This document shows, piece after piece, positions 10,951 through 45,142 of a stretch of DNA of 64,000 nt. Below the pieces are notes generated by a model that saw only the letters and a list, made by a program, of their open reading frames with translations, did not search any database and had not been told where the DNA came from. This DNA comes from Acidimicrobiia bacterium (GTDB taxonomy: Bacteria > Actinomycetota > Acidimicrobiia > Spongiisociales > UBA11373): positions 62,001 to 126,000 of the forward strand of contig JBBDWO010000011.1 of NCBI GenBank assembly GCA_040902765.1, read 5' to 3'. The position numbers and the translations under genes were made by a program. The number at the start of each line of letters is the position of its first letter. The first letter of the stretch is position 1.

Positions 10951-11052
10951 AGCTACCCGCTACCAGCTACCAGCTACCGGCTGCCAACCAGAACCGTCTG
11001 GCTGTGAGCTGTTGGCTGTCAGCTGGTCGCCGGTAGCCGGTAGCCGGTAGCC
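10951..11052. repeat. Large heptad hairpin (GCTACCA x4 / GGTAGCC x3)
   Basis: Four heptads GCTACC(C/A/A/G) fill 10952-10979, and three perfect GGTAGCC heptads fill 11032-11052 in inverted sense. Between them is CCAGAACCGTCTGG (10988-11001), itself a 5-bp stem with an ACCG loop, and an AGCTG-rich stretch. The element separates rnj (upstream on minus) from ftsK. Confidence 0.85.
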
Positions 11053-11075
11053 GGATCTGACCGAAGGTCAGATCC
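11053..11075 (-). terminator. rnj stop-codon hairpin
   Basis: GGATCTGACC and GGTCAGATCC form a perfect 10-bp stem around a GAA loop. The rnj TGA stop codon is inside the stem. No T-run follows; the large heptad hairpin begins immediately after it in the direction of transcription. Confidence 0.65.
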
Positions 11076-13595: not shown

Positions 13596-13609
13596 CCGCT
13601 AACAGCCAA

Positions 13610-13724
13610 CCGTCAACCGTCAACCGTCAACCGTCAACAGCTAACAGACAGCCAACAGCCAGACCGTTCTGGCTGTGAGCTGTCAGCTGTTAGCTCCTCT
13701 GGCCATGAGCCATGAGCCATGAGC
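13610..13724. repeat. Compound heptad element (CCGTCAA x4, core hairpin, CATGAGC x3)
   Basis: Four perfect CCGTCAA heptads (13610-13637) are followed by an outer 9-bp inverted pair, AGCTAACAG (13639-13647) with CTGTTAGCT (13687-13695). Inside it is a 9-bp stem ACAGCCAGA/TCTGGCTGT with a CCGT loop (13655-13676), which contains CCAGACCGTTCTGG. Three perfect CATGAGC heptads follow at 13704-13724. All of this lies in the divergent gap between dapA and the thioredoxin gene. Confidence 0.85.
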
Positions 13725-13759
13725 CACTGGGAAGGGAATGTCGACCGCTGCTGGCTCGT

Positions 13760-14608: not shown

Positions 14609-14666
14609 CGCGGTTCGCAATTCGCAATTCGCAATTCTTCTGGCGAATTGCGAATTGCGAACCGCG
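14609..14666. repeat. 22-bp perfect inverted repeat built from CGCAATT heptads
   Basis: The arms 14609-14630 and 14645-14666 are perfect reverse complements over 22 bp, with a 14-nt loop. Three CGCAATT heptads (14616-14636) form the left arm and part of the loop. The loop holds TTCTTCTGG, the reverse complement of a CCAGAAGAA core. It sits between the convergent thioredoxin and dapB genes and could terminate both. Confidence 0.9.
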
Positions 14667-14674
14667 AATAGCGC

Positions 14675-15376
14675 TTAAAGCACTGCCTCCAGGCCCACGG
14701 TGACCGGCTCGGGCAGTCCGGCGACGCGGCGTACCGCAAGCAGCACGCCGGGCATGAACGACCGCCTGTCCGTGGTCTCGTGGCTGATGGTGAGGGTCTC
14801 GCCCACCCCACCGAAGATCACGTCCTGGCGGGCCACGATGCCCGGTAGCCGCACCGAGTGGATCTCGGGTGGATCGGCCCCCGCCGACCGCCCCATCCGC
14901 CCGGCGGTGGCGATCGCCGTCCCCGAGGGGGCATCCACCTTGTCCTGGTGATGCATCTCGACGATCTCGGCGTCGGGAAGATGGGCCGACGCTTCCTCGG
15001 CGAACCGCATCATCAGCACCGCCCCGATGGAGAAGTTGGGGACCACGAGGCAGTTCGGCGGCCCGCTCCCCCACCGGCCGCCCAGTTCGGTGAGTCGCGC
15101 CTCGTCGAATCCGGAGGTACCCACGACGGCGTGAACGCCGAGAACCCGCCACCGGGCGAGATTGTCCAGCACGATCGTCGGGACGGTGAATTCGACGACC
15201 ACATCGGCCTCGCCCACCGCGTCGGTGTCGTCGGTGACCGTGATCCCGGCGATGGTCTCGTCGGCGTGCGACGGGTCGAAGGCGACGACCAGGTCGAGGT
15301 CGTCCGCTTCGGCGACCGCCTGGCAAACGAGCACACCCATGCGCCCTGCGGCTCCGGAGACGGCGACGCGGATCAT
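14675..15376 (-). CDS. dapB: 4-hydroxy-tetrahydrodipicolinate reductase
   Basis: DapB reduces the DapA product with NAD(P)H. The 233-aa protein has the nucleotide motif SGAAGRMG (residues 7-14) and the catalytic/substrate motif MHHQDKVDAPSGTA (His142-His143, Lys146, with the SGT at 151-153). The length is slightly below the usual 240-270. The ATG at 15376 overlaps the stop codon of the M16 peptidase gene (ATGA), so the two are co-translated; a peptidase-dapB pair is seen in several Actinobacteria. Confidence 0.96.
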   Translation of the reverse strand: MIRVAVSGAAGRMGVLVCQAVAEADDLDLVVAFDPSHADETIAGITVTDDTDAVGEADVVVEFTVPTIVLDNLARWRVLGVHAVVGTSGFDEARLTELGGRWGSGPPNCLVVPNFSIGAVLMMRFAEEASAHLPDAEIVEMHHQDKVDAPSGTAIATAGRMGRSAGADPPEIHSVRLPGIVARQDVIFGGVGETLTISHETTDRRSFMPGVLLAVRRVAGLPEPVTVGLEAVL

Positions 15377-16623
15377 GCCACGAAGCGTTCCAGGTCGGTG
15401 GCGTCGAACGGTCCGACGCCACCGAGGACGAACGGGCCGGAAAAGACGTCCTTGGCGACGGCATGCACCTCGTCGAGGCTCACCGCCTCGATCCTGGCCA
15501 CCGCCTCGTCGAGCGACAGATGGTCGACGCCGGTGAGTTCGTGCCGGCCGAGGCGCACCATCCGGCTGTTGGTGTCTTCCATCGAGAGCGCTAGGGACCC
15601 CTTGGTGTGGCCCTTGGCCCGCTCGAGCTCCTCAGCGGTGAGACCTTCATCGACCGCCTTGGTCAGCTCATCGCGAGTGATCTCGAGGACCAACGGCGCC
15701 TGGTGGGGCGTGGTGCCCACATACACCCCGAAAGCTCCCGAATCGGCGTAGGGCATCCGGAACGAGTACACCGCATAGGCGAGTCCTCGCTCCTCCCGGA
15801 TCTCGCGGAACAGCCGGCTCGACATGCCTCCACCGAGAACGTGGTTGAGCAGGCCGAAGGCGAACCGGCGATCGTCCCCCCGATCGAGTGCCTCACCGCC
15901 GAGGACCAGGTGTGCCTGTTCCGTGTCTCGCCGCACCACACCGACACGCGGCTCGATGACGGGCGGGGCGAGATCGTGATCGGCGGCGTCACCCACCCAG
16001 GCACCGAAGCGATCCTCCACCATGCGTACGACGTCGTCGTGCTCGGCATGCCCGGCGACCGCCACCACCAGGGTCGACGGGTGATACCGACGTGCCCAGT
16101 AGCCGGCGATGATGTCGCGCCCCATCGCGGTGATCGACTCGCGGGTACCGAGGACCGGACGGGCGAGCACGTGTTCCCCCCAGAGAGCCCTGGCGAATTG
16201 GTCGTGGGCCACGTCGGCCGGATCGTCCTCGTTCATGTTGATCTCTTCGAGCACCACGTGGGCCTCGGAGGCGATCTCCTCGGGACGGAAGGCAGGGCGC
16301 TGCATCATCTCGCCCAGCAGGTGCATGCCCATGTCGAGGTCCTCGTCACGTAGCTGCGCCCAGTAACACGTGTATTCCTTGGAGGTGAAGGCGTTGGACC
16401 GCGCCCCTACCTGGTCGAAGGCCTCCGAGATGGCCCGGGCGCTCAGTCCCTCCGTGCCCTTGAACAGCAAATGCTCGAGAAAATGCGAGCAACCTGCCTC
16501 CGGCTCGGTCTCGTCCCGGCTGCCGGTGTCCACCCAGCACCCGACCGACACCGACCGCACCGAGGGCATGGTCTCGGTGATGACGCGGATGCCGTTGGGC
16601 AGGGTGGTGAGTTGATGATCCAA
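15373..16623 (-). CDS. M16 family zinc peptidase (processing-peptidase-like)
   Basis: The 416-aa protein is an M16 zinc peptidase, related to mitochondrial processing peptidase and PqqL-like proteins. The inverted zinc motif HFLEH (His47, Glu50, His51) is intact, and the C-terminal half has the GGGMSSRLFREIREERGLAY-type substrate-binding region. I place the start at TTG 16623, where GGAG lies 7 nt upstream and the protein begins in the usual way (DHQLTTLPNGIRVIT). An upstream in-frame start near 16755 would put a heptad repeat in the coding region. The physiological substrate is unknown. Confidence 0.88.
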   Translation of the reverse strand: MDHQLTTLPNGIRVITETMPSVRSVSVGCWVDTGSRDETEPEAGCSHFLEHLLFKGTEGLSARAISEAFDQVGARSNAFTSKEYTCYWAQLRDEDLDMGMHLLGEMMQRPAFRPEEIASEAHVVLEEINMNEDDPADVAHDQFARALWGEHVLARPVLGTRESITAMGRDIIAGYWARRYHPSTLVVAVAGHAEHDDVVRMVEDRFGAWVGDAADHDLAPPVIEPRVGVVRRDTEQAHLVLGGEALDRGDDRRFAFGLLNHVLGGGMSSRLFREIREERGLAYAVYSFRMPYADSGAFGVYVGTTPHQAPLVLEITRDELTKAVDEGLTAEELERAKGHTKGSLALSMEDTNSRMVRLGRHELTGVDHLSLDEAVARIEAVSLDEVHAVAKDVFSGPFVLGGVGPFDATDLERFVA

Positions 16624-16713
16624 GAGCAGGCTCCAGTCTCCAGGCCCCAGCCAGTGAGCATCGGGGCAGGCGATGGTACCGGCACTCCGGGGCTCCTCCG
16701 ACGCCACACCGTC

Positions 16714-16768
16714 GACCGGTCTTGCTGGAAGCCGGTAGCTGGAAGCTGGGCGCACGCCAAAGGCGTGC
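16714..16768 (-). repeat. Heptad array (GCTGGAA-type x4) with liv operon terminator hairpin
   Basis: Four heptads, GCTGGAA, GCCGGTA, GCTGGAA and GCTGGGC, run from 16724 to 16751, preceded by GACCGGTCTTG (16714-16724), which resembles the core of other arrays. A separate 7-bp hairpin, GCACGCC-AAA-GGCGTGC (16752-16768), abuts the livF stop codon and is the likely end of the liv transcript. Confidence 0.75.
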
Positions 16769-16769
16769 C

Positions 16770-17498
16770 CTAGTCCACTTCTCCCAGGTACGCCTGACGC
16801 ATCTGGGGGTTGGCGAGCAGACCTTCGGCGGTGTCGGCGAGGACGATCTGGCCGGTTTGGAGGACGTAGCCACGGTCGGCGATCGACAGCGCCATGTTGG
16901 CGTTCTGCTCGACGACGAAAACCGTGGTCCCGGCCTCGTTGATCTGCTGGATGATCTCGAAGTTCTGGGCCACCAGGATCGGCGCCAGCCCCATCGACGG
17001 CTCGTCCATGAGCAGCACCTTGGGACGGGCCATCAGCGCACGACCCACGGCCACCATCTGCTGCTCACCGCCGGACAGGGTGCCGGCCTTCTGGCCGAGG
17101 CGCTCCTTGACCCGGGGGAACAGCTCGAAGATGCGTTCCATGTCGCCATCGAGATTCTCCTTGTCCTTGCGAAGGAAGCCGCCGATCTCCAGGTTCTCCT
17201 TGACGGTCATCCGCTTGAACAGGCGCCGGTTCTCGGGGACCATCGACACCCCGCGTTCCACCCGCTTCGACGTCGACCAGTCGGACACGATCTCGCCGTC
17301 GAGCAGCACGTCGCCCGTCGTCGGGAGCACCATCCCCAGGATGGTCTTGAGGGTCGTCGTCTTGCCCGAGGCGTTGCCCCCGAGCAGACACACGATCTCG
17401 CCGGCATAGACCTCGATGTCGATGTCCTTGAGGATGTGGGCGGGCCCGTAGTGCGTGTTGACCTGACGGAACTCGAGAACCGGGGTTCGCTCGGTCAC
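16770..17498 (-). CDS. livF: Branched-chain amino acid ABC transporter ATPase LivF
   Basis: The 242-aa ATPase is one of two motor subunits of an amino acid importer. It shows Walker A GGNASGKTTT (about residue 40), signature LSGGEQQMVAVGRAL, and Walker B VLLMDEPSMGLAP. The GTG at 17498 overlaps the livG stop as GTGA. It is the last gene of livK-H-M-G-F. Homologous systems also carry amides and urea, so substrate specificity is not certain. Confidence 0.95.
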   Translation of the reverse strand: MTERTPVLEFRQVNTHYGPAHILKDIDIEVYAGEIVCLLGGNASGKTTTLKTILGMVLPTTGDVLLDGEIVSDWSTSKRVERGVSMVPENRRLFKRMTVKENLEIGGFLRKDKENLDGDMERIFELFPRVKERLGQKAGTLSGGEQQMVAVGRALMARPKVLLMDEPSMGLAPILVAQNFEIIQQINEAGTTVFVVEQNANMALSIADRGYVLQTGQIVLADTAEGLLANPQMRQAYLGEVD

Positions 17499-18295
17499 GA
17501 CGCCGCCTCCCCGGTGGCCGCCGGACGACCGAGATAGGCCTCGATGACCCCGTCGTCGCTCGACACCTCGTCGTATGACCCCTCGGCGATCTTGACGCCG
17601 TGGTCGAGTACCGCCACCCGGTCGGACACGTCGCGCACCACCTTCATGTCGTGTTCGATCACGACGATGGTGAACCCTCGCTCGTCACGCAGCTTGCCGA
17701 TGAGCTCGGTGAGCTCTCGCGTCTCGCGGGGGTTCATACCGGCCGTCGGTTCGTCGAGGAGGAGCAGCTCGGGCTGGGTCGCCATGGCGCGAGCGATCTC
17801 CAGCCGTCGGCGATTGGCGTAGGAGAGGACGAAGGCGGGTTGGTCGTGGCGGTACCCCGCCAGTCGGGTACCGAAGAAGGACAAGACCTCACGCGCCCGT
17901 GCCTCGATCTCAGCCTCCTCCCGGAGGAACCCGGGGCTCCTGAGCAGTGCGCTCAGCACGCCCTGTCTGGTCCGGCAGTGCTGGGCGACCATGATGTTCT
18001 CGAGGACCGTCATGTTGGGGAACAGGCGCACGTTCTGGAAGGTGCGGGCGATGCCCAGCTTGGTCACCTGATCCGGGGTAAGGCCCGCGATGTCCTCGCC
18101 GCGAAAGAAGATCTCACCCTGGTCGGGGTGGAACATGCCGCTGATGATGTTGAAGAAGGTGGTCTTGCCGGCACCATTGGGTCCGATCACGGACAAGATC
18201 TCGCCGGAGTTCACGATCAGGTCGACGCCGGAGAGCGCGTTGAGGCCACCGAATCGCTTGGTCAGCGCACGCACGTCGAGGAGCGCGGAGGTCAT
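17495..18295 (-). CDS. livG: Branched-chain amino acid ABC transporter ATPase LivG
   Basis: The 266-aa ATPase has Walker A GPNGAGKTTFFN (about residue 38), the LivG-specific stretch ARTFQNVRLFPNMTVLENI, and Walker B LLLLDEPTAGMNP. The signature region reads LSYANRRRLEIARAM, where the second and third signature positions (usually GQ) are AN; LivG signatures are often non-canonical here. The ATG overlaps the livM stop (ATGA). Confidence 0.95.
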   Translation of the reverse strand: MTSALLDVRALTKRFGGLNALSGVDLIVNSGEILSVIGPNGAGKTTFFNIISGMFHPDQGEIFFRGEDIAGLTPDQVTKLGIARTFQNVRLFPNMTVLENIMVAQHCRTRQGVLSALLRSPGFLREEAEIEARAREVLSFFGTRLAGYRHDQPAFVLSYANRRRLEIARAMATQPELLLLDEPTAGMNPRETRELTELIGKLRDERGFTIVVIEHDMKVVRDVSDRVAVLDHGVKIAEGSYDEVSSDDGVIEAYLGRPAATGEAAS

Positions 18296-20295
18296 GGCTT
18301 CGCCTCCTCCGCCTCACCGTCGGCGTCCTTGAGCCAGACATCCTGCATCATCTCCTCGGCGTGCAGCTCCCGGGCCCGCCGGGCGCTCGGCCACAAGCCC
18401 TCGGGTCGCTGCAGCATCATCCAGATGAGGATCACGCCGTAGAGCAGCAGTTTGAACTCGGCGAACTCACGGAGAAGGCCGGGCTGCGTCGGTCCGCCGA
18501 GGACGCCGATGAGCACGACGGCGCCGATGGCGACGCCACGCAGGCTTCCCATGCCCCCGACGATCACGATCACCAGGATGATGATCGATTGGACGATCTG
18601 GAACGAGTGCGGGAAGATCGTCCCCAGCTTGACGGCGAACAACGCGCCGCCTAACGAGGCGAGCATCGCCCCGATGACGAAGGCCAGGAGCTTGGTGGTG
18701 ACGATGTTGATCCCCATCGTCTGGGCGACCTGCTCGTCCTCCCGCACCGCCACCCAGGCACGGCCGAGCCGCGACTCCTGGAGGCGCCAGGTGACGAATC
18801 CGGCGAGGACGGCGAACACGAGCACGATCCGGAACATGGCGGGCGGGTTGATGCCATTGATCGTCCAGGTGAGGAACGTCGGGAAGAGCATCCCCAACAC
18901 GGCGGCGAGCGCACCCGCGACCATGAGCAGCACGCTGCTGCGCGAGGTATACGACGGGACTCCGTCGAGGGGGGCGACGTCTCGCTGGGCGTCACGCCAC
19001 CGTAGGAACCCGATCACCAGCAGAACGATGCCGACGGCGGCGAGGACGTAGCCGTAGGAGACCCGGATCCCGGCCCCCTGCCCGGGTCCGAGCGGCGAGA
19101 TGCGAATGATCCCCTGGGCGGCCCCGAACAGGTTGGCCAGCCAGTCGGACTGGAGGGCGATCCGGGCGATCTCACCGAACCCGAGGGTGACGATGGCGAG
19201 ATAGTCGCCGCGCATGCGGATCACCGGTGTGCCGATGACGAGGCCGGCGACCGCCGCCATCCCCAGCACCCACGGGAGGGCCTCGAAGAACGCCATTTCG
19301 GGGGTGAAGGACGGTGACAACGGCGAGGTCACCACCGCGGTGGTGTAGGCGCCCACGGCGAAGAAGGCCACATAGCCGAGGTCGAGGAGGCCGGCGTAGC
19401 CGACCACCACGTTGAGACCGAGACCGAGGAGGATGAATAGGCCCACGTTCGAGAGGAGCTCGTTGAGGTAGGTGCCGAACAGTGACGGCATGAAGGCACC
19501 GATCGCCACCAACAGGACACCGCCGATGAGCGCCGTCCTCCGCTTGGCCGACTGCGACTGGCCGACCACCTTCTCTCGTACCGCCCGAACTCGCCCTGCC
19601 AGGACGATCTTTGCCAGGACGGCCCCGACGGCCACGATCACGGCGGCCGGAATGCTCAGGCCGCGCGACGGGCGGTAGATGAACCGGTCGACCCCAACGG
19701 CGCCGAGCTCCCGCAGGATGTTGCCGATCACCAGCTCGGCGAAGTTGAACAGCACCAGGGCGATGAGAGCCGTCCGAAGCGGACCCCGCAACCGGTCCGG
19801 CAACAGATGGAGAGCGCCGCCGAGCGCCGCCAGCGCCGCCCCGGCGAGCACGAGGAGCATCGCCCCCATGAGCGGCTCCTGGCCGAAGCCGAGGGTTTCG
19901 CGCATGTTCGGCGAGATGTTGAGGAAGATGTCGCGCAGATGGACCGCGTCGGCGACGAGCAGGAAGAGACCGACGACGAAGCCGACGATGGCCCCGACGG
20001 CGCCGCCGGACACGATGTTGTAGGCACCCGGAGGGGGCACCTCGACACCTTCGAGCTCCTGGCGCTTCGAAACCAGGTAGCCGAACAGGATCGGTACCCA
20101 GACGATGGCCGCATACCCGAGGCTGAGAATGGGATCGATCACCTTGCGGGAGTCGAACGTCTCGAACATGCCGATGGCGGCGATGAACACCACGATGAGG
20201 CCACCGATCGCTCCGCGGCGCAGCACGCTGCGGGCCGTCACATCGCCGAGAAAGCCGCGGCGTGCGCTGCCGACCTGCGTGGTGACGGCGGTCAC
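18292..20295 (-). CDS. livM: Branched-chain amino acid ABC transporter permease LivM, enlarged
   Basis: The C-terminal two thirds form a standard LivM permease with the family motifs LGLNVVVGYAGLLDLGYVAFFAVGAY, LAIVTLGFGEIARI and SRLGRAWVAVREDE. At 667 aa it is far longer than the usual 300-420. About 250 extra N-terminal residues hold several predicted membrane segments, and a further loop with one membrane segment (about 400-480) lies inside the permease domain. The start at 20295 overlaps the livH stop. The extra segments could be a fused small membrane subunit; this is inference. Confidence 0.93.
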   Translation of the reverse strand: MTAVTTQVGSARRGFLGDVTARSVLRRGAIGGLIVVFIAAIGMFETFDSRKVIDPILSLGYAAIVWVPILFGYLVSKRQELEGVEVPPPGAYNIVSGGAVGAIVGFVVGLFLLVADAVHLRDIFLNISPNMRETLGFGQEPLMGAMLLVLAGAALAALGGALHLLPDRLRGPLRTALIALVLFNFAELVIGNILRELGAVGVDRFIYRPSRGLSIPAAVIVAVGAVLAKIVLAGRVRAVREKVVGQSQSAKRRTALIGGVLLVAIGAFMPSLFGTYLNELLSNVGLFILLGLGLNVVVGYAGLLDLGYVAFFAVGAYTTAVVTSPLSPSFTPEMAFFEALPWVLGMAAVAGLVIGTPVIRMRGDYLAIVTLGFGEIARIALQSDWLANLFGAAQGIIRISPLGPGQGAGIRVSYGYVLAAVGIVLLVIGFLRWRDAQRDVAPLDGVPSYTSRSSVLLMVAGALAAVLGMLFPTFLTWTINGINPPAMFRIVLVFAVLAGFVTWRLQESRLGRAWVAVREDEQVAQTMGINIVTTKLLAFVIGAMLASLGGALFAVKLGTIFPHSFQIVQSIIILVIVIVGGMGSLRGVAIGAVVLIGVLGGPTQPGLLREFAEFKLLLYGVILIWMMLQRPEGLWPSARRARELHAEEMMQDVWLKDADGEAEEAKP

Positions 20296-21632
20296 CCTCG
20301 CTCCTCCAGCGCCAGGCGTTCACCGAGAAGACCGGCCGGCCGGGCCATCAGCACCCCGATGAGCACGAGAAAGGCGATCATGTCTTTGAGCTGAGAGGTG
20401 CCGGGTATGACGACCTGGAAGCCCGGGAGTTGGGTGAAGGCGAGGAGGGCAAAGAGGCTTCCGACCAGCATCCATCCGACGGCGGACCCCGTGTCCCGAA
20501 CGTGTCCCTGGCGGAACCTTAAGAAACCACGCACCGCCCCGGCGAGTGCGGCGGCACCGATCGTGTGGGCGACCCAGGTAGGAATCGCCCAACGCAGGCT
20601 CGCCATCATGGTCGGCCCGGCGGCCTCGAACATGCCCAGGGTGAGACCACCGAGCATGGCACCGGGCAGATTCCCGATGCCGCCGAGTACGGCTGCGGTG
20701 AACGCCTTGATCCCGGGGAGGAACCCGGTGTGGAAGAAGATGTTGCGGAAGAGCAGCGCCCACATGATGCCGGCGACACCTGCCATGGCTCCGCCGACGG
20801 CGAAGGTCTTGACGATCGTCCGGTTGACGTCGATGCCCATGAGTCCGGCGATCTCCCTGTCCTCGGCGACCGCCCGGATGGCCCGGCCGCTCTTGGACTT
20901 GCTGACGAACCACCAGAGAGCGACCACGGAGACGGCGGCGACGAAGATCACCACCAGCTTCGACCCCTCGACCTGGAATCCGAGCACGTTGACCCGTTCC
21001 CGCAGGCCGACCGGGAGTTGTGGGTAGCTCTTGATGTTCCCGCCGAACAGCCCCAGGACGGCGTACTGCAGGAAGAAGGACACGCCGATCGACGTGATGA
21101 GCGGGATCAGCCGCGGTGCGCCCCGGAGCCGTCGGTAGGCGACCTTCTCGATGGTGATGGCCACGATCATCGAGGTGAGCGCGGCCCCGATGAGAACGAT
21201 GACGAAGGCGAGCGGGAAGTTCGCCTCCCACATGCCCGAAGCGAACAGCGCGCCGGCCATGAGGTACCCACTGAAGGCGCCCGTCATGAACACCTCGCCG
21301 TGGGCGAAGTTGATGAACCCGAGGATGCCGTAGACCATCGAGTAGCCGAGGGCGATGAGCCCGTATATGGATCCGGTGGCGAGACCGCCGACCACCACGT
21401 CACGCCAGGAGTCGGCGCCCAGACCCTCCCCCTGGACCTGCAGGACGATGGTCCCCACGACGGCCCAGAGGGCGAAGAAGGCGAGGAAAACCTTCATGGC
21501 GAACACGAAGACATCCACGGCGACCGTCGCCGGGTCGGCGCGCAAAGCGCGACGCTGGGCTCGAACCCCCGTCACCATGCGGTTGTCCGACCCATCACCG
21601 GTCTCCCCTTCGTCCAATGGTCGGGGGAGCAT
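20292..21632 (-). CDS. livH: Branched-chain amino acid ABC transporter permease LivH
   Basis: The 446-aa permease has LivH hallmarks: GLATGSIYGLIALGYSMVYGI, FINFAHGEVFMTGAF and MGIDVNRTIVKTFAVG. It is longer than typical LivH (about 290-310), with an N-terminal cytoplasmic stretch plus one extra membrane segment and about 70 extra residues before the C-terminal helix. The ATG at 21632 has no Shine-Dalgarno sequence; an in-frame ATG at 21578 is a possible alternative. It is separated from livK by a strong hairpin. Confidence 0.93.
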   Translation of the reverse strand: MLPRPLDEGETGDGSDNRMVTGVRAQRRALRADPATVAVDVFVFAMKVFLAFFALWAVVGTIVLQVQGEGLGADSWRDVVVGGLATGSIYGLIALGYSMVYGILGFINFAHGEVFMTGAFSGYLMAGALFASGMWEANFPLAFVIVLIGAALTSMIVAITIEKVAYRRLRGAPRLIPLITSIGVSFFLQYAVLGLFGGNIKSYPQLPVGLRERVNVLGFQVEGSKLVVIFVAAVSVVALWWFVSKSKSGRAIRAVAEDREIAGLMGIDVNRTIVKTFAVGGAMAGVAGIMWALLFRNIFFHTGFLPGIKAFTAAVLGGIGNLPGAMLGGLTLGMFEAAGPTMMASLRWAIPTWVAHTIGAAALAGAVRGFLRFRQGHVRDTGSAVGWMLVGSLFALLAFTQLPGFQVVIPGTSQLKDMIAFLVLIGVLMARPAGLLGERLALEERG

Positions 21633-21673
21633 AGCGAGGCAGGGCGCGAGACGGACCGGGGGGACACAACGCG

Positions 21674-21703
21674 AAGGGACCCGGCCTTTCGGCCGGGTCC
21701 CTT
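21674..21703 (-). terminator. Hairpin between livK and livH
   Basis: AAGGGACCCGGCC and GGCCGGGTCCCTT form a perfect 13-bp stem. On the transcribed minus strand the loop is GAAA, a GNRA tetraloop. No T-run follows. It probably reduces read-through or protects the livK mRNA, making the binding protein more abundant than the membrane subunits, as in other ABC importers. Confidence 0.8.
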
Positions 21704-21724
21704 CATCGCATCGATCTGGGGCGG

Positions 21725-23047
21725 TCAGCCGCCGGTGATGATGCCGATCAGGTCAGCACGGGTGTACGACGCCGACACCGGGGTGAGCGAAATGTCAGTG
21801 ACGCTCGAGTCGGTGTGGTAGGCGATCTGCACGCGCTGGCTACCGCAGTCACCGAACTCGTCACAGGTGATCTTGCCGATCAGCCCGTCGAAGTCCGCAA
21901 CGGTCTCCAGATAGTCGCGCAGTGCCTGGCGGCCGATCCGCAACACGCCGTCGTCACCGACCACTCCGACCTCACGGATGGCCGTGAGGACGAGCACGGT
22001 GGCGTCGTAGGTGTGCGCGTGGAACGGTGCCGGGGGAACAACGCCGTTCGCAGCCTCGTAGGCGGCGCGCATCTCGGCATAGTTCTTGCCGGTTGCGCTC
22101 ACGTTGCCGCCGAAGTCGAGGTCCGGACCGGAGAAGTACATACCCTCGGTCTCGGGGATCGAGATGTAGTCACCGACGAACAGGCCGTCAGCACCAAACC
22201 ACACCACGTCCTCGAGGCCGGCTATGCCGTCCTTCTGCTGGATGATCTCAGGACCACCCGTCCCCGGGAAGATCGGGAAGAACACGACTTCCACGTCTGC
22301 CCCGGCGATCTCGGTCAACAGCGCCGTCTGATCGGCACCAGCGGTGCCGGACGTCGCCGTGAACACGGGAACCTCGCCACCGAGCGTCTCGAAGGCGCTC
22401 CGGAACGCATTGGCCAGCCCCTGGGTGTACGGGTCACCGTCATGGACGGCGGCCGCACGCGTCAGTCCGAGCTCGTCGAAGACGAACTTGGCGACTGCGG
22501 CACCCTGGAACAGGTCGTTGTGTGCGGTCCGGTAGTAGCCCGGCTGGAAGCTCTCACCGGCAGTGCCCTGCAGGTCCGAGGTCAGGTCGGGGGCCGTGTT
22601 GGAACCCGAGAACAGCACCATGCCCGCGGCGGAGTACACCGGCATTGCAGCGCGCTGCGCTCCCGAGCAGGTGGTGCCGATCACGGCGACCACATTGCCC
22701 TGGGCGACGATCGCCTGAGCACCGGCCTGTCCACCCTCTGCGCTGCAGAGGTCGTCCTCAGCAACGCCCATGTCCACGGGGAATCCGTGAATGTCGCCAA
22801 AGTCGGCGATGGCGAGCTCGACGCCACGCACCTGGTCGATACCGAGCGACTCGGCCGGGCCGGAGATCGCCTGGTGGGCGCGGATCTGGATTGCTTCACC
22901 GGGCTGAACCTCGACGACACCGAGCGGATCTTCAGAACCGCCAGCAGTCGTCGTGGTGGTATCACCATCGCCACAGGCGGCGGCGACGAGCGCCAGCGCC
23001 AGGACCATGACGGCCAGGTGTCGCAATCTCATTGAAATGCGACTCAT
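21725..23047 (-). CDS. livK: Branched-chain amino acid ABC transporter, substrate-binding lipoprotein LivK
   Basis: The 440-aa product is a type I periplasmic-binding fold protein. The signal peptide ends in a lipobox, LVAAAC, with Cys25 as the lipidation site, then a Thr-rich linker. The Leu/Ile/Val-binding region includes ISGPAESLGIDQVRGVELAI, a match to LivK/AmiC-type receptors. The start is ATG 23047 with GGAGG 9-10 nt upstream; an in-frame extension to 23356 would lack a signal peptide at its N terminus. It heads the liv operon and is divergent from the VWA gene. Confidence 0.94.
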   Translation of the reverse strand: MSRISMRLRHLAVMVLALALVAAACGDGDTTTTTAGGSEDPLGVVEVQPGEAIQIRAHQAISGPAESLGIDQVRGVELAIADFGDIHGFPVDMGVAEDDLCSAEGGQAGAQAIVAQGNVVAVIGTTCSGAQRAAMPVYSAAGMVLFSGSNTAPDLTSDLQGTAGESFQPGYYRTAHNDLFQGAAVAKFVFDELGLTRAAAVHDGDPYTQGLANAFRSAFETLGGEVPVFTATSGTAGADQTALLTEIAGADVEVVFFPIFPGTGGPEIIQQKDGIAGLEDVVWFGADGLFVGDYISIPETEGMYFSGPDLDFGGNVSATGKNYAEMRAAYEAANGVVPPAPFHAHTYDATVLVLTAIREVGVVGDDGVLRIGRQALRDYLETVADFDGLIGKITCDEFGDCGSQRVQIAYHTDSSVTDISLTPVSASYTRADLIGIITGG

Positions 23048-23178
23048 AACTTGTTTCCCTCCATAGTGAATGCGGGACCGAGTGCTCACGCCTCCGGTCC
23101 AGCAGGAGGATTGTAGCGGGCCGTATCCCTCTCGGAGACACCCGGGGCACATTCGCGTCGCATACCCGTCGCGCATAC

Positions 23179-25272
23179 ATGGGACAATCGTGGGCTGTGC
23201 TGAGCCGCGACGGCGCATTCCTGAGCGAGATCCTGCCCCCCGAAGAGCGGGCGGTGGAGGCCGTGGTCGCCCGATATCAGCGGGTAGCGGCGGCGGTGAC
23301 CCGCTTCGCCCGGTCGCTCGCCGACGATGAGGGCCTGCGGGTTCGGCTGGGGTCACGGACCAGTGCCGAGCCCGGCGAGATCGTCATGGACCCTGGCGTC
23401 TTCCAGGCGGCCTACGCCCGCCGGGCACCGGTCACCCCTGCGGAAGTGGCCCTCGCCTCCGCACTCCACGAAGCGATCCATCTGGTCACCACCGATTTCG
23501 ACGAGGCGCGGCCGGTGCCCCCCGAGTGGCTGCCGGACGACGGGGAGCCACCGCCCGACACCCCGGTGGCGCTACTCGAGGCACTCGACCACGCCGGCGG
23601 CCCGGCCGCCGAGGCGATGTTCCTCGCCATCGAGGACGCCCGTCAGGAGATCCAGCACCTCACCGCCTACCCCGGCGCCCGGTCGGTGCTCGCCGACCTG
23701 TACCGCGCCTCTATCCCATCAGCGATGGAAGCTGCCCGCCCCATGGGGCAGTTCGCCCTCGCCTGCTTCCTCGCCGTCGGCGGCTATCAGACCGTCAAGG
23801 ACCTGCAGCGGCGATCCGAGCCGGTGGTCGCCGCCGCCCTCGAGGACGCACGGCGACTCCTCGGCGATGCCGCCGACGTCGATGGCCCGTGGGAGGCGGC
23901 CGGCGTCGCCCTCAACCTGTTGGCCGTGGCCCGGGCGCACGGGCTGGTCACCGAGGCATCGCCGTCCGAAACCCCGCAGGCACGCGACAACCGCGAAGAG
24001 GCGGAGAAACGCCAGATCGAGGAGGCGGTGGACGCGGTACGGCTGGTCACCCCGATCCTGCGCGACGCCGAGTCGTACGACTCGGCCCGGCAGGCCGCCC
24101 AGATGTCGGGCGACCAGGCCAAGCGCGGTGACACGACCGAGGCCGGCGACCCGGCCACCGACCAGATCCTGCGCGTCGCCGAAGGGGCCGACGTCTATCT
24201 GCCCACCGGCCAGGGCGGCAAGCTGATCGTCTCGCCGGTGCCCGACCGCTTCGGGTCACTCGCCGATCGCGGGCGCGAGGCGCTCGAGGAAGCGGCGCTG
24301 CGGTGGGGGGTGGCGCAGCGGCACATCTCCGGCGAGCTGTACCCCCTGTTCATCGCCAACCAGCGGCGAGGCCTGCGCTCCGGCTACGACGCCGGCGACC
24401 TGTCCCCCCATGCCGCACTGCTCCTGGGAGGCGGCTTGTACCAACGCATGTTCGAGCGACGCTCCCTGCCGAGTCGGCGTGCCTATGCGGTGAGCCTCCT
24501 CGTCGACGGATCGGCGAGCATGCTCCAACCGCGCCCGCTACCCACCGGCTCCAAGGCGCCGTGGGCGATGGCGGCGGCGACACTCGGTGCCTGGAGCCTG
24601 GCCAGGCTGTGCGACGAGCTCCAGGTGGAGTTCGAGGTGGCCCTGTTCAACCGCGCCTTCGCCGCCCGGGTCGAGGACACCGAGCGCAGCTACACCGAGC
24701 GTCTCAACGGAACTCGCGGAGCGCTACGGCGGAGCCAGGGAGGAGCCGCCGACCGGCTCACCAGGACCGTCAATCACTACCTGGTCAAGTCGTTCGACGA
24801 TCGGTGGGTGGCAACCGAACCGACGCTCGCCGGGCTGTTCTGGACGGCGGCGAAGCCGGCCGAGGCCGGGATGGCGGCGCGCCGGTCGCCCACCGACTTC
24901 CCCCCGGTGTCGATGTTCGAAAAGGCGGCCAACGTCGACGAGTTGAACGTGAGCCACGCCGCCGAACGGCTCGCCGCCCGGCACGCTCAGGTGCGGATCC
25001 TCATCGTCCTCGCCGACGGGATGACGCGAGGGTCGGTCGAGACGCTGGCCGCCTCGGTGGCGGCGGTGGAGCAGACGGGCACCATGGTGCTGGGCGTCGG
25101 GATCGGCGACGCCACCGTAGAAGCCGCCTACGGACGAAGCGAGGTGGTCAGCCGCCCCGAGTCGCTCACCCGGGCCATGGTCGAAGGGGTTCGTGGCGCC
25201 CTGCGCCGCAGCATCGCCGAGCAGGGCGGAGACACCTGGTGGGGCCACGGAGCCGGCGAGAGGTACAAGTGA
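23179..25272 (+). CDS. VWA-domain protein with N-terminal HExxH metallopeptidase-like domain
   Basis: The 697-aa protein has two recognisable parts. Near the N terminus, ALHEAIHL (residues 96-102, HEAIH at 97-101) matches HExxH, and about 50 residues on comes AIEDARQE (150-157), an EDxR motif that could give the third metal ligand, as in CobT/NorD-like proteins. The C-terminal third is a von Willebrand A domain with a MIDAS motif DGSASM (Asp443-Ser447) and LADG downstream. The middle has a charged helical region. It is followed by an AAA+ MoxR-like gene, the usual partner. Function is unknown; no cobaltochelatase genes are nearby. GTG 23197 is an alternative start. Confidence 0.82.
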   Translation: MGQSWAVLSRDGAFLSEILPPEERAVEAVVARYQRVAAAVTRFARSLADDEGLRVRLGSRTSAEPGEIVMDPGVFQAAYARRAPVTPAEVALASALHEAIHLVTTDFDEARPVPPEWLPDDGEPPPDTPVALLEALDHAGGPAAEAMFLAIEDARQEIQHLTAYPGARSVLADLYRASIPSAMEAARPMGQFALACFLAVGGYQTVKDLQRRSEPVVAAALEDARRLLGDAADVDGPWEAAGVALNLLAVARAHGLVTEASPSETPQARDNREEAEKRQIEEAVDAVRLVTPILRDAESYDSARQAAQMSGDQAKRGDTTEAGDPATDQILRVAEGADVYLPTGQGGKLIVSPVPDRFGSLADRGREALEEAALRWGVAQRHISGELYPLFIANQRRGLRSGYDAGDLSPHAALLLGGGLYQRMFERRSLPSRRAYAVSLLVDGSASMLQPRPLPTGSKAPWAMAAATLGAWSLARLCDELQVEFEVALFNRAFAARVEDTERSYTERLNGTRGALRRSQGGAADRLTRTVNHYLVKSFDDRWVATEPTLAGLFWTAAKPAEAGMAARRSPTDFPPVSMFEKAANVDELNVSHAAERLAARHAQVRILIVLADGMTRGSVETLAASVAAVEQTGTMVLGVGIGDATVEAAYGRSEVVSRPESLTRAMVEGVRGALRRSIAEQGGDTWWGHGAGERYK

Positions 25273-25285
25273 TCGTGTACCGCTT

Positions 25286-25320
25286 GCGAATCGCGAATCG
25301 CGAATCGCGAATCGCGAATC
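25286..25320. repeat. Heptad array (GCGAATC x5)
   Basis: Five perfect, contiguous copies of GCGAATC fill 25286-25320. A related inverted piece, GCGAACCGCG, lies at about 25336-25345 without long pairing. The array sits in the gap between the co-directional VWA and MoxR-like genes, where a terminator would be unexpected. Confidence 0.9.
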
Positions 25321-25372
25321 GCGGTCTCCCAATTGCGAACCGCGCCTCTCGCCCTGCGAACATGGAGCGTTC

Positions 25373-26362
25373 ATGACCACCACCGTCACCTTCGAGGACC
25401 CCACCGGCGCCGGCGCGCCGATCGGGCTCGCCTTGCACGAGCTCGGCGACGACATCACCGACGGCACCCAGCGACTGGCCAAGATCCCCGAGCCCGACCC
25501 GCACTACGTCGATCTCGGCATGCTCTACCGGCTCGCCGCCTTCGAGCGGGTGCGCCGGGAGTCGATGGCCGACACCCCGCTACACCTCGCCCTGCGCGGT
25601 CACATGGGGACGGGTAAGGACCACGATCTCGAGCAGTTCGCCGCCATCCTTCGCATGCCCTACTACCGGATCCCGCTCACCGGCGAGGTCCGCGACATCA
25701 CGCTCATCGGATCGGTAAAGCTCTATGGCGATGGCAAGGGCGGAACCGAATCGCGCTGGGAGGACGGCGACATCACGCGTGCGCTGCGGGGCCCGGCCCT
25801 CATCAACCTCTCCGAGCTCAATGCCGCAGGAGCCGAGACGCTGTTCGCCCTCCACGGTCTGCTCGATCGGTACCAGGCCCTCGACCTCCCGACCGGAGAA
25901 ACGGTGCGGTTGCGCCGGGACACCCGCATCTTCGGCACCCTCAACCCCACCGACCTCCGCGACTACGCCGGCACCCAGACCCTCAACAAGGCCTTCGCCG
26001 ACCGCTGGGTGATCTGGGAGAAAAGCTTTCCCGACGGGGACCAGCTGGAGATGATGCTCACCCGGCGCTACCCCGGCATGGCGGCCCCCTACGTCACCGT
26101 CATCACCCGACTCGCCGTCGAGGTGAACGAGTCGTTCCTGTCCGCCGACGCCCGGACCCGTGTCGGCACCCCGATGAGCCTGCGCACCGTGCTCGACCGA
26201 CTCCCCGCCGGGCTCTACATGCACGCCGCCGACGACGATCCCCTCCGGCGCGCCTGGGAGGGCTTCGTGCTCAGCCACATAGACCCGTTCGACCGCGACC
26301 ACTACGAGACGGTGTGGGCTGCGGTCGCCCGCCGGGGACCCGACGTCAAGCCCTTCCGGTAG
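25373..26362 (+). CDS. MoxR/CobS-like AAA+ ATPase with altered Walker motifs
   Basis: The 329-aa protein follows the AAA+ plan of the MoxR/CobS group. A Walker A-like GHMGTGKDHD (residues 76-85) has Asp where Ser or Thr normally binds Mg. The Walker B position reads LINLSELNAA (143-152) with Ser in place of the usual Asp before Glu. Sensor 1 is in IFGTLNPTD (about 176-184), then KAFADRW with a candidate Arg finger. The start at ATG 25373 has GGAG 7 nt upstream. MoxR ATPases act with VWA proteins as chaperone-like pairs; the neighbour fits this role. ATPase activity is uncertain. Confidence 0.82.
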   Translation: MTTTVTFEDPTGAGAPIGLALHELGDDITDGTQRLAKIPEPDPHYVDLGMLYRLAAFERVRRESMADTPLHLALRGHMGTGKDHDLEQFAAILRMPYYRIPLTGEVRDITLIGSVKLYGDGKGGTESRWEDGDITRALRGPALINLSELNAAGAETLFALHGLLDRYQALDLPTGETVRLRRDTRIFGTLNPTDLRDYAGTQTLNKAFADRWVIWEKSFPDGDQLEMMLTRRYPGMAAPYVTVITRLAVEVNESFLSADARTRVGTPMSLRTVLDRLPAGLYMHAADDDPLRRAWEGFVLSHIDPFDRDHYETVWAAVARRGPDVKPFR

Positions 26363-26371
26363 GGGACTCTC

Positions 26372-27442
26372 ATGGAACCGACCCCGGGCACCAGACATCC
26401 CCGGCTCGACGAGGCGATACAAGCTCTGATCGCAGAGGCCATTGACCTCAACGGCAGCCGACGCGACACGGATCTCCTGGAGGAGATGCTCACGACGGTG
26501 GTGCAGCTCAACGCCGATGCCGCCGACCGCGGCGACCTCAAACTGATCAACACCTCACTGCGAGAGATGCGCAACGCCTTCCTGCTGTTCGGCAAGTACC
26601 GGGCCGAACGCAAGGTCTCGGTGTTCGGATCGGCCCGCCTCCCCGAGGACGATCCGAACTACCGAATGGCGGTCTCCTTCGCCGAGGAGATGGCCCAGCG
26701 CCGCGACTGGATGGTGGTGACCGGCGCCGGACCGGGCATCATGGAAGCCGCCAACCGGGGCGCCGGTCCCGGCCGATCGTTCGGCGTCAACATCCGACTC
26801 CCCTTCGAGGACGCCGCCAACCCGTTCGTGGAACCCGACCGCCTCATCGACTTCCACTACTTCTTCACCCGCAAGCTCATATTCGTCAAGGAGTCGGATG
26901 CCTTTGCGCTGTTTCCGGGCGGCTTCGGGACCCTCGACGAGACCTTCGAACTGCTCACCCTGACCCAGACCGGCAAGACGAGCGTTCACCCCATCGTCCT
27001 GCTGGAAGCGCCGGGCACCGGATACTGGCAGCCGTGGCTCGACTTCGTGGAGACCAGCCTGGTTCGGAAGGGCACCATCTCGGCACACGACCTCAACCTG
27101 TTCACCTACACCACCGACCCAATGGCCGCCGCCGACGAAATCACCCGCTTCTACACCAACTACCACTCGCAGCGGTTCGTCGGGGATCGCCTGGTGCTGC
27201 GCCTGGTGCGGCCCCTCGGTGACGAAGACCTGGCCTGGTTGAACGACGAGTTCGGCGACATGCTCGCCTCGGGTCGCATCGAGGCGATCGAGGCGACCGA
27301 AACGGAGATCGCCGACGACGACCACGTCGAGCTCCCCCGGCTCAGACTCCACTTCGACCGGCGCAGCCTGGGACGCCTCCGCTACATGGTGGACGCCATC
27401 AACGACCTGTCGCCCGGAGAGCCAGCGCCCGCGGGCGATTAG
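26372..27442 (+). CDS. LOG-family Rossmann protein (nucleoside-monophosphate phosphoribohydrolase-like)
   Basis: The 356-aa protein has the LOG/TIGR00730 core: SVFGSARLPEDD, GAGPGIMEAANRGA (about residue 119) and the catalytic-site motif PGGFGTLDETFE (about 187-198). LOG proteins release the base from nucleoside 5'-monophosphates; plant members make active cytokinins and many bacterial ones are nucleotide nucleosidases. The protein is longer than simple LOG (about 190 aa), with about 75 extra N-terminal and 90 extra C-terminal residues. It starts 9 bp after the MoxR gene and is probably co-transcribed. Confidence 0.88.
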   Translation: MEPTPGTRHPRLDEAIQALIAEAIDLNGSRRDTDLLEEMLTTVVQLNADAADRGDLKLINTSLREMRNAFLLFGKYRAERKVSVFGSARLPEDDPNYRMAVSFAEEMAQRRDWMVVTGAGPGIMEAANRGAGPGRSFGVNIRLPFEDAANPFVEPDRLIDFHYFFTRKLIFVKESDAFALFPGGFGTLDETFELLTLTQTGKTSVHPIVLLEAPGTGYWQPWLDFVETSLVRKGTISAHDLNLFTYTTDPMAAADEITRFYTNYHSQRFVGDRLVLRLVRPLGDEDLAWLNDEFGDMLASGRIEAIEATETEIADDDHVELPRLRLHFDRRSLGRLRYMVDAINDLSPGEPAPAGD

Positions 27443-27475
27443 CCTTACGGCATCCAGAGCGGATGCTCGAAGGAG
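27440..27475 (+). promoter_or_regulatory. TAGCCT hexamer and AAGGAG ribosome binding site
   Basis: TAGCCT (27440-27445) overlaps the LOG-gene stop codon, and AAGGAG (27470-27475) lies 10 nt before the ATG of a 29-codon ORF. Unlike most TAGCCT sites in the window, this one is followed by a leader with a ribosome binding site. Confidence 0.5.
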
Positions 27476-27485
27476 TGTGAGACGG

Positions 27486-27575
27486 ATGGCGGTATCACCG
27501 ACCCATCACCGGCGTGGCGCGGCTCCGGCCTGGCGCGCCGTCCTCGACCAGTGGGGATCCGACGATCATGCGTGA
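27486..27575 (+). CDS. Short leader ORF (29 aa) overlapping the DinB-like gene start
   Basis: An ATG at 27486, with AAGGAG upstream, opens a 29-codon frame rich in His, Arg and Trp. It ends in a TGA at 27573-27575 that overlaps the ATG at 27568 of the next gene (ATGCGTGA, 8-nt overlap). The arrangement would let ribosomes from the small ORF re-start at the DinB-like gene. It could be a regulatory leader peptide or simply a chance frame; I do not recognise the peptide. Confidence 0.4.
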   Translation: MAVSPTHHRRGAAPAWRAVLDQWGSDDHA

Positions 27576-28302
27576 GATCCTGGCCGACCTGGTCGCCGAA
27601 CAGCAGGGACTCGACCAGTCGCTGCAACGGGCACCCGACCGCGACTGGAAGAAGCGCATCGCCGCCGGCGGACCCACCGTGGTCCAGACCATCGCCCGGC
27701 TCTCCTGGGGTGAGCAGCATGCGGCACGCCTGCTCCAGGGAGACAAGAAGGTCATCAAGGAGGTCGAGGGATACGACGACTGCGACGCCTTCCATCAGGC
27801 GGGCATGGACCTGGCCAAGGGAAAGCGTCCGCAAGAGGTGATCGAGGCCTGGCGCTTCGCCCGCGCCGACGTGGTCGATGCGCTGAGTCGGCTGAAGTCC
27901 GAGGACATGGTCCCGTGGTTCGGCGGGAAGATCAAGGCCCGCACCTTCGCCACCATTCGCCTGGCGGAGACCTGGGCCCAGGGGCTCGGCATCCTCACCA
28001 CCCTCGACAAGGAGATCGTCGAGCATCCTCGACTGGTGCACGTCGCCTGGCTCGGGTGGGCCACCCTCCCCCACGCCTTCGCCGACAAGGGCTTGGCCTA
28101 CCCCAAGCCGGTGCGCGTCGAACTCGTCGGACCGGGTTACGCCCGCTGGGTGTTCGGCCCGGACGGAGCCCCCGATGTAATCCGCGGGCAGGGCGTCGAC
28201 TGGTGTCGCCTCGCCGCTGGTCATACCACCAAGCCCGGATCCCTCATCGCCACCGGTGACGTCGCCCAGCAGGCGCTCAAGAGCGTTCAGATCTTCTCGT
28301 GA
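27568..28302 (+). CDS. DinB-like / TIGR03084-type mycothiol-family protein
   Basis: The 244-aa protein resembles the TIGR03084 branch of the DinB/maleylpyruvate isomerase-like superfamily, four-helix bundles often metal-dependent and linked to mycothiol. Matching parts are WGEQHAARLLQG in the first helix region, RLAETWAQGLGI at the second, and a C-terminal domain with PVRVELVGPGYARWVFGP. The usual metal-binding HxxxD position at the second motif reads QGLGI, so metal binding may be lost. ATG 27568 is chosen for its coupling to the leader ORF; GTG 27514 in frame is possible. Function unknown. Confidence 0.72.
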   Translation: MREILADLVAEQQGLDQSLQRAPDRDWKKRIAAGGPTVVQTIARLSWGEQHAARLLQGDKKVIKEVEGYDDCDAFHQAGMDLAKGKRPQEVIEAWRFARADVVDALSRLKSEDMVPWFGGKIKARTFATIRLAETWAQGLGILTTLDKEIVEHPRLVHVAWLGWATLPHAFADKGLAYPKPVRVELVGPGYARWVFGPDGAPDVIRGQGVDWCRLAAGHTTKPGSLIATGDVAQQALKSVQIFS

Positions 28303-29066
28303 CTCCCCGGCTCATCGGGATGGTGCACCTGGGAGCCCTCCCCGGGTCTCCGGCGTTCGACGGCGATCTGACCGGCGTCATCGACAGAGGGCGACGCGAC
28401 GCCGCGACCCTCGCAGACGCCGGCTTCGACGCCGTCATGGTGGAGAACTTCGGTGATGCTCCCTTCTTCGCCGACACCGTGCCTCCGGCCACCATCGCCG
28501 CCATGACCGTGGCCGCCGCCGCCATCGCCGATGCCGTCGACGTCCCCATCGGCATCAACGTGCTGCGCAACGATGCCCTGGCCGCGCTCGCCATCGCCTC
28601 GGCCGTGGGCGCTGGCTTCATCCGGGTCAACGTCCTGTCGGGGACCATGTTCACCGACCAGGGTCCGATCGTGGGACGCGCCGCCGAGGTGGCCAGGGCG
28701 CGACGCACCCTGGCCCCGAATACCCGGGTGTTCGCCGACGTGTTCGTCAAACACGCCACGCCGCCGCCGGGTTCGTCGCTGCGTCTCGCCGCCGCCGACC
28801 TGTGGGAGCGCGGTGGAGCGGACGCCCTGATCGTCAGCGGTGACGGCACCGGCGACCCGGTCGACCCCGGAACACTCTCCGAAGTCACTGCCGCCGTGCC
28901 GGGTGCCCCCGTCCTCGTGGGATCGGGAGCCACCGCGCAGACCGTCGGCTCGCTGCTGGCAAAGGCGAGCGGCGTGATCGTCGGCACCGCGGTCAAGGTC
29001 GGCGGGGTGACGACCGCTCCGGTCGACGCCACCCTGGCGCGGCAGTTCGTGGCCGCGGCCGGCTGA
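28299..29066 (+). CDS. BtpA/SgcQ family protein
   Basis: The 255-aa protein is a BtpA-family TIM-barrel-like protein: GMVHLGALPGSP at the start, FDAVMVENFGDAPF near residue 43, GINVLRNDALAALAIA, and GADALIVSGDGTG late. BtpA stabilises photosystem I in cyanobacteria, but homologues are common in non-photosynthetic bacteria, where the role is unclear (SgcQ is near sugar-uptake genes). The GTG at 28299 overlaps the DinB-like stop as GTGA. Confidence 0.9.
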   Translation: MTPRLIGMVHLGALPGSPAFDGDLTGVIDRGRRDAATLADAGFDAVMVENFGDAPFFADTVPPATIAAMTVAAAAIADAVDVPIGINVLRNDALAALAIASAVGAGFIRVNVLSGTMFTDQGPIVGRAAEVARARRTLAPNTRVFADVFVKHATPPPGSSLRLAAADLWERGGADALIVSGDGTGDPVDPGTLSEVTAAVPGAPVLVGSGATAQTVGSLLAKASGVIVGTAVKVGGVTTAPVDATLARQFVAAAG

Positions 29067-43547: not shown

Positions 43548-43609
43548 AACGCTCAACGCTCAACGCTCAACGCCAGACGCTCTTGCGTTGAGCGTGAAGC
43601 GTTGAGCGT
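43548..43609. repeat. Heptad hairpin (AACGCTC x3, core CCAGACGCTCTTG, inverted arm)
   Basis: Three perfect AACGCTC heptads (43548-43568) and AACGCCA precede the core CCAGACGCTCTTG (43573-43585). The arm 43549-43573 pairs with 43585-43609 over 25 nt with two mismatches. The element lies between two divergent genes, where no terminator is needed. The same heptamer is at 29540 and, as CAACGCT, at 2061. Confidence 0.9.
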
Positions 43610-45074: not shown

Positions 45075-45083
45075 CACCCACTC

Positions 45084-45104
45084 GCTACTCGCTACTCGCT
45101 ACTC
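45084..45104. repeat. Heptad array (GCTACTC x3)
   Basis: Three perfect GCTACTC copies, then GCTAGCGTCTCGGG, whose GTCT resembles the core of other arrays. The array sits between two co-directional genes, lipoprotein and mscS. Confidence 0.85.
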
Positions 45105-45142
45105 GCTAGCGTCTCGGGTGTTCGCTGAGGAGAGGTTCGAGC

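Follow-up and report, generated by a model that had tools for sequence, protein, structure and literature searches.

The 64,000-nucleotide stretch analysed here (the window), from an Acidimicrobiia bacterium, encodes two adjacent genes, one for a CobT-like VWA protein and one for a CobS/NorQ/midasin-like AAA+ protein. In the AAA+ protein, the residue after the Walker A lysine (Lys+1) has changed from Thr to Asp and the Walker B Asp has changed to Ser. Judged from the sequences alone, the Mg-binding Ser/Thr-Asp pair has been reciprocally exchanged rather than lost. The exchange is clear and fixed in the protein family, and we found no earlier report of it in the open-access literature searched, which is weak evidence of its novelty. 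We lean towards reading the pair as a remodelling machine of the CobST/NorQD type with a mirrored Mg site, which is probably still an ATPase.

Exchange of the Walker residues

The AAA+ gene (25373-26362, forward strand) starts at the first ATG consistent with its homologues and encodes 329 aa. A longer open reading frame (ORF), from a GTG at 25193, would overlap the VWA gene; it was rejected as an artefact of mechanical ORF calling. The protein has an AAA_5-type domain (PF07728, 44.5 bits against a cutoff of 22). Its Walker A motif, GHMGTGKDHD, begins at G76 (25598-25627) and contains K82 (25616-25618) followed by D83 (25619-25621), where Thr or Ser is normally found. Walker B (LINLSE) ends in N145-L-S147-E148 (25805-25816), with S147 (25811-25813) in the place of the usual Asp and the catalytic glutamate, E148, retained. 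Alignment places sensor 1 at N191 (25943-25945) and a predicted sensor 2 at R271 (26183-26185), and R211 in ADRW (26003-26005) is the predicted arginine finger.

Kozlova and colleagues (PMC9599734) describe both residues, the Ser/Thr at Lys+1 and the Asp of Walker B, as strictly or almost strictly conserved in P-loop NTPases; their main text names as exceptions the nucleotide monophosphate kinases, with Gly at Lys+1, and a Glu that replaces the Asp. Alignment of 109 distinct family sequences revealed Asp at position 83 and Ser at position 147 in every one, and K82, E148, N191, R211 and R271 were likewise invariant. Among 46 distinct homologues outside the family, Lys+1 was Thr or Ser, and the Walker B position, unaligned in one of them, was Asp, Glu or Asn. 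The named comparators, CobS, NorQ, phage CobS-like and plasmid MoxR proteins, were all canonical at Lys+1, and no intermediate of either kind (Asp/Asp or Thr/Ser) was present among 222 matched ORFs. Ser147 is encoded by TCC, TCG, TCA and TCT, and by AGC in two sequences. Since TCN and AGY are not one base change apart and serine was retained, selection on the side chain is suggested. Because they are fixed in all 109 sequences and Ser147 spans both codon types, the Walker changes are neither chance nor error, and sequencing error or decay is ruled out. The first-pass annotation had described a MoxR-like VWA/AAA+ pair with unusual Walker A and B motifs, the AAA+ protein lacking the Ser/Thr of Walker A (GTGKDH) and the Asp of Walker B (NLSELN). 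This description is borne out across the family: a search of relatives recovered the same changes, and no orthologue with normal Walker motifs was encountered.

In the phylogenetic tree, every exchanged sequence fell in one group (support 100/99), in a tree whose deep branches are long and whose bootstrap had not settled. This is consistent with a single origin of the exchange. Polar residues invariant in the family, H84 and D85, stand beside the exchanged pair together with N145 (107/109), and positions 85 and 145 are hydrophobic in most homologues. These residues suggest a site that was rebuilt rather than ruined. In ten AAA+ matches from the phylum the Walker B Asp is replaced by Glu (KT/EE or KS/EE; L048, L049, L059, L061, L062, L067, L068, L072, L077 and L078), and L077 and L078, the nearest relatives by score, read LLLEELN there.

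The main alternative is a pseudo-ATPase, whose ring would bind nucleotide weakly or without Mg and would serve the VWA/HExxH protein as a static scaffold or a regulator. Both Mg-site residues are replaced, and replacing either one is reported (PMC9599734) to abolish activity in other P-loop NTPases. This weighs against an exchanged site that still hydrolyses ATP, as do the possibility that a carboxylate at Lys+1, close to the phosphates, could weaken ATP binding and the low confidence of the predicted AAA+ model at residues 104-130 and 192-216. However, Glu148, Asn191, Arg211 and Arg271 do not vary across 109 sequences that span two divergent lineages, whereas pseudoenzymes usually lose several catalytic residues, and the residues replaced are precisely the two that were exchanged. 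We therefore consider a pseudo-ATPase rather unlikely. A degenerate chaperone, as first proposed for this pair, fits poorly with a reciprocal exchange fixed in all family sequences alongside invariance of the other catalytic residues checked. Whether this is a naturally evolved, active AAA+ ATPase, its Lys+1 and Walker B residues exchanged, fixed once and kept in two lineages, appears to us evenly poised.

The VWA partner and its relatives

The VWA gene (23179-25272, forward strand; 697 aa) was delimited from its ORF and homologue alignments, which indicate that the true start may be a GTG at 23197. The HEAIH, EDAR and C-terminal MIDAS elements noted in the first-pass annotation are all present in this ORF. 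The HExxH motif, H97-E-A-I-H101 (23467-23481), lies in the N-terminal CobT-like domain within a predicted helix (residues 87-104), and H97, E98 and H101 are invariant in the 17 aligned VWA sequences. Loss of HExxH was looked for and not seen in any of these 17; the few VWA rows without the motif were ORFs of 191-595 aa, which were taken to be truncated. The segment E152-D-A-R-Q-E157 (23632-23649) is equivalent to EQARVE of CobT and EDxRIE of phage proteins. E157, invariant in the family alignment and located in the next predicted helix (132-161), is a candidate third metal ligand, and an equivalent Glu is also present in CobT, which itself lacks HExxH. In the C-terminal VWA domain, the MIDAS motif D443-x-S445-x-S447 (D443-G-S-A-S447, 24505-24519) has its three named residues invariant in the 17 aligned sequences, and N585-V-D587-E588 (24931-24942) aligns to ENIDGE of CobT.

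Several comparisons identify the VWA partner, at the level of sequence, as CobT-like. Pfam gave weak VWA or CobT_C signals only: the window protein scored 12.8 bits against CobT_C, below the cutoff of 21, and 9 of the 17 members matched weakly (best E 5.8e-6). Searched against the PDB, the family profile matched the VWA region of CobT (E 9e-5) and, weakly, its N-terminal EQARVE region. An earlier hhalign comparison of the whole VWA alignment with two Aeromonas proteins only gave a weak match, to the VWA part alone. Comparison of the N-domain profile with 13 N-domains of phage, plasmid and haloarchaeal CobT-like proteins aligned 243 columns (hhalign probability 95.8, E 3.3e-9), placing HEAIH over HExxH and AIEDARQE...YPG over LEDxRIE...YPG. 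Foldseek searches with the predicted model (mean pLDDT 78) returned phage CobT-like proteins as full-length matches and NorD and midasin as matches to the VWA domain.

HExxH was present in 10 of the 13 CobT-like comparators and absent from CobT, a Stenotrophomonas phage protein and an Acinetobacter plasmid protein. By these alignments, the motif is a widespread feature of the CobT-like N-domain that has at times been lost, and no invention of the window family. Since many phage and plasmid CobT-like proteins retain HExxH, the HExxH-VWA combination is not new, and the earlier impression that it was unusual has to be given up: many such proteins have canonical ATPase partners. HExxH and EDxRxE keep their register across CobT-like VWA proteins of phages and plasmids (L222:7234-9084, L228:7236-9173, L229:5865-8582 and L234-L239), and HExxH is lost in CobT.

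These motifs raise the possibility of an ATP-gated metallopeptidase, in which the HExxH domain would cleave a client delivered by the ring and the MIDAS, with the ATPase as regulator. The invariance of HExxH and E157, their positions in one long predicted helix and the next, and the frequent annotation of related phage proteins as peptidases all speak for it. On the other side, the domain is retained without HExxH in CobT and in the Stenotrophomonas phage and Acinetobacter plasmid relatives, which indicates that peptidase activity is not its general role. The top PDB matches included no peptidase fold, and the authors of PMC8651126 considered phage CobT to be wrongly annotated as a peptidase, a label that may have arisen from the conserved HExxH. 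We regard a metallopeptidase as unlikely. The DUF2201 metallopeptidase-VWA family gave no PF13203 match in the window protein (P0001) or in its own genome.

By homology of its sequences, the pair belongs to the CobT-like/MoxR-VWA superfamily while departing from its canonical Walker motifs. As in CobS-CobT, an AAA_5 ATPase is encoded beside a VWA protein, with a CobS profile match at E 6.3e-18, and the VWA protein shares with CobT an N-domain, an acidic or variable linker and a C-terminal VWA domain with an aligned N-x-D motif. In contrast, CobS has GKS and DE, CobT lacks HExxH, and the pair-bearing genomes tested lack CobN. The resemblance raises the alternative that the two proteins are subunits of a cobaltochelatase (CobST) or of another enzyme that inserts metal into tetrapyrroles; CobS, CobT and phage CobST are the nearest named families. 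However, the score against the CobS equivalog TIGR01650 was 43.6 bits, far below its cutoff of 558.55, and the CobN/BchH family (PF02514) was found in none of the 29 genomes with the pair that were examined, 15 from the host order and 14 from a second lineage described below. Because of this absence, such a role appears highly improbable.

The CobST-like pairs of Gordonia phages, cyanophages and Aeromonas plasmids have the same two-gene layout and give full-length fold matches, and many of their VWA partners carry the register-matched motifs described above. They differ in that K[T/S] and [D/N]E occur in all of their AAA+ partners examined, identity is 25-30%, and the pairs belong to mobile elements instead of the core chromosome. 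The NorQ-NorD, CbbQ-CbbO and MoxR-VWA systems likewise combine a ring ATPase with a MIDAS-bearing VWA partner and provided the best PDB fold matches for both proteins, but NorQ and CbbQ have canonical Walker motifs and the NorD compared lacks HExxH. Midasin (Rea1/MDN1) was the best PDB sequence match of the AAA+ profile (E 5e-33), and its MIDAS fold matches the VWA domain; unlike the window pair, it is one giant eukaryotic polypeptide of six AAA modules with canonical ATP sites.

Distribution and gene neighbourhood

The AAA+ gene was detected in 94 of 99 genomes of the host order, which are metagenome-assembled genomes (MAGs) of Acidimicrobiia, at ~69-81% identity, and in 72 of the 73 host-order genomes of at least 90% completeness. 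At least 31 genomes of a second lineage, another family of the same class, also encode it, with 54-61% identity. These genomes are 0.7-1.1 Mb in size, with 33-35% GC in the three loci read, and the lineage is probably Candidatus Actinomarina. Other parts of the class and phylum gave weak matches only, to other MoxR-like proteins. Scanning GTDB with one genome for each species yielded 156 relatives, the best 80 of which were MAGs, most of them labelled Acidimicrobiia or Actinomycetota. In scans of viral contigs, the VWA queries led nowhere and the AAA+ query gave distant relatives only. The VWA gene adjoins the AAA+ gene in 98/98 family loci. Most members of the two lineages are uncultured.

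The ~1 Mb genomes encode a second MoxR-like ATPase with canonical motifs, its gene lying between an upstream proA-like gene and a downstream VWA gene (L263, L254). Because of its own VWA neighbour and canonical motifs, it looks like a separate CoxD/CoxE-like pair, and a mixed ring with a close active paralogue was rejected for the Actinomarina-like genomes. This rejection is limited to those genomes, the larger ones having 13-19 AAA_5 matches each.

Upstream of the pair lies dapB on the opposite strand, and DinB/MDMPI-like and BtpA-family genes lie downstream in both lineages. The order dapB, VWA/AAA+ pair, DinB/MDMPI-like and BtpA-family was kept in loci L074, L075 and L076 relative to window positions 15002-29066, with a LOG-family gene, transporters and other genes varying. 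In the second lineage the downstream stretch is broken by genes on the other strand; what the two lineages share is thus a gene order, not an operon. The LOG-family gene (26372-27442, forward strand) had been suggested as encoding a client. It is downstream on the same strand in most host-order loci, but at a variable distance of up to ~5.5 kb, and in three second-lineage loci no LOG gene was seen close to the pair. A role as client is not supported, LOG is no obligate partner, and we do not judge it part of the machine. VMAP-type conflict systems need a third component (PMC7159879), and no VMAP, iSTAND, FtsH or beta-propeller gene was recognised among the conserved neighbours, which were not exhaustively profiled. 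A defence system was rejected, PADLOC giving no match for the three proteins.

Between the VWA and AAA+ genes lies an array of 5.4 copies of the heptamer GCGAATC (25286-25323, no strand assigned). It is a dispersed genomic repeat and no part of the conserved system; the genome contained 86 matches to the GCGAATC type and none to the reversed control. The window contains eight tandem arrays of differing seven-base units, among them this one and a degenerate copy at 14643-14670, the others being at 10951-10986, 11021-11054, 13607-13638, 13702-13726, 43548-43582 and 45080-45108. These arrays resemble the heptamer tandem repeats of cyanobacteria.

Proposed working of the pair and its significance

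The sequences show the two proteins to be paired and homologous to known machines, with an invariant exchange of apparently single origin and otherwise intact catalytic residues; from this we infer how the pair might work. The AAA+ protein would form a ring on which the VWA protein docks, presenting its MIDAS to a client protein, while the N-terminal CobT-like domain would carry a metal site at HExxH. At the exchanged site, Asp83 would coordinate Mg2+ directly and Ser147, perhaps with Asn145, would be its hydrogen-bond partner. The site would still bind and hydrolyse ATP, powering remodelling of the client. In NorQD, the VWA partner inserts a finger into the ATPase pore, ring motion turns the VWA domain against the N-domain, and the MIDAS is the likely client contact (PMC13036017). 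We propose, by homology, that the window pair works in a similar way. Retention of the pair in ~1 Mb genomes counts in favour of such a remodelling ATPase.

A more specific proposal, which we hold tentatively, is that the pair acts as a chaperone in metal insertion into, or assembly of, a conserved metalloprotein whose gene lies elsewhere, much as NorQD serves NO reductase. Its architecture is common to NorQD, and its near-universal presence in two lineages implies a core client; against this, there is no candidate client. This proposal is a narrower form of the remodelling machine and does not contradict it.

In a survey of 3136 structures, the short hydrogen bond between Ser/Thr and Asp was proposed as the universal proton trap of catalysis (PMC9599734). 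The Asp/Ser exchange leaves the chemical make-up of this pair unchanged and swaps its sides. Because it is perfectly conserved, the exchange offers a natural test of the mechanism of such motors, and a stable natural exchange makes the proton-trap proposal directly testable by single and double reversions. If our reading is true, the Ser/Thr-Asp pair works as a unit with interchangeable sides. The register-matched HExxH of CobT-like N-domains suggests that the whole class possibly descended from a metal-binding domain. Finally, the pair apparently belongs to the core genome of streamlined marine bacteria, and its client is thus probably important to them.

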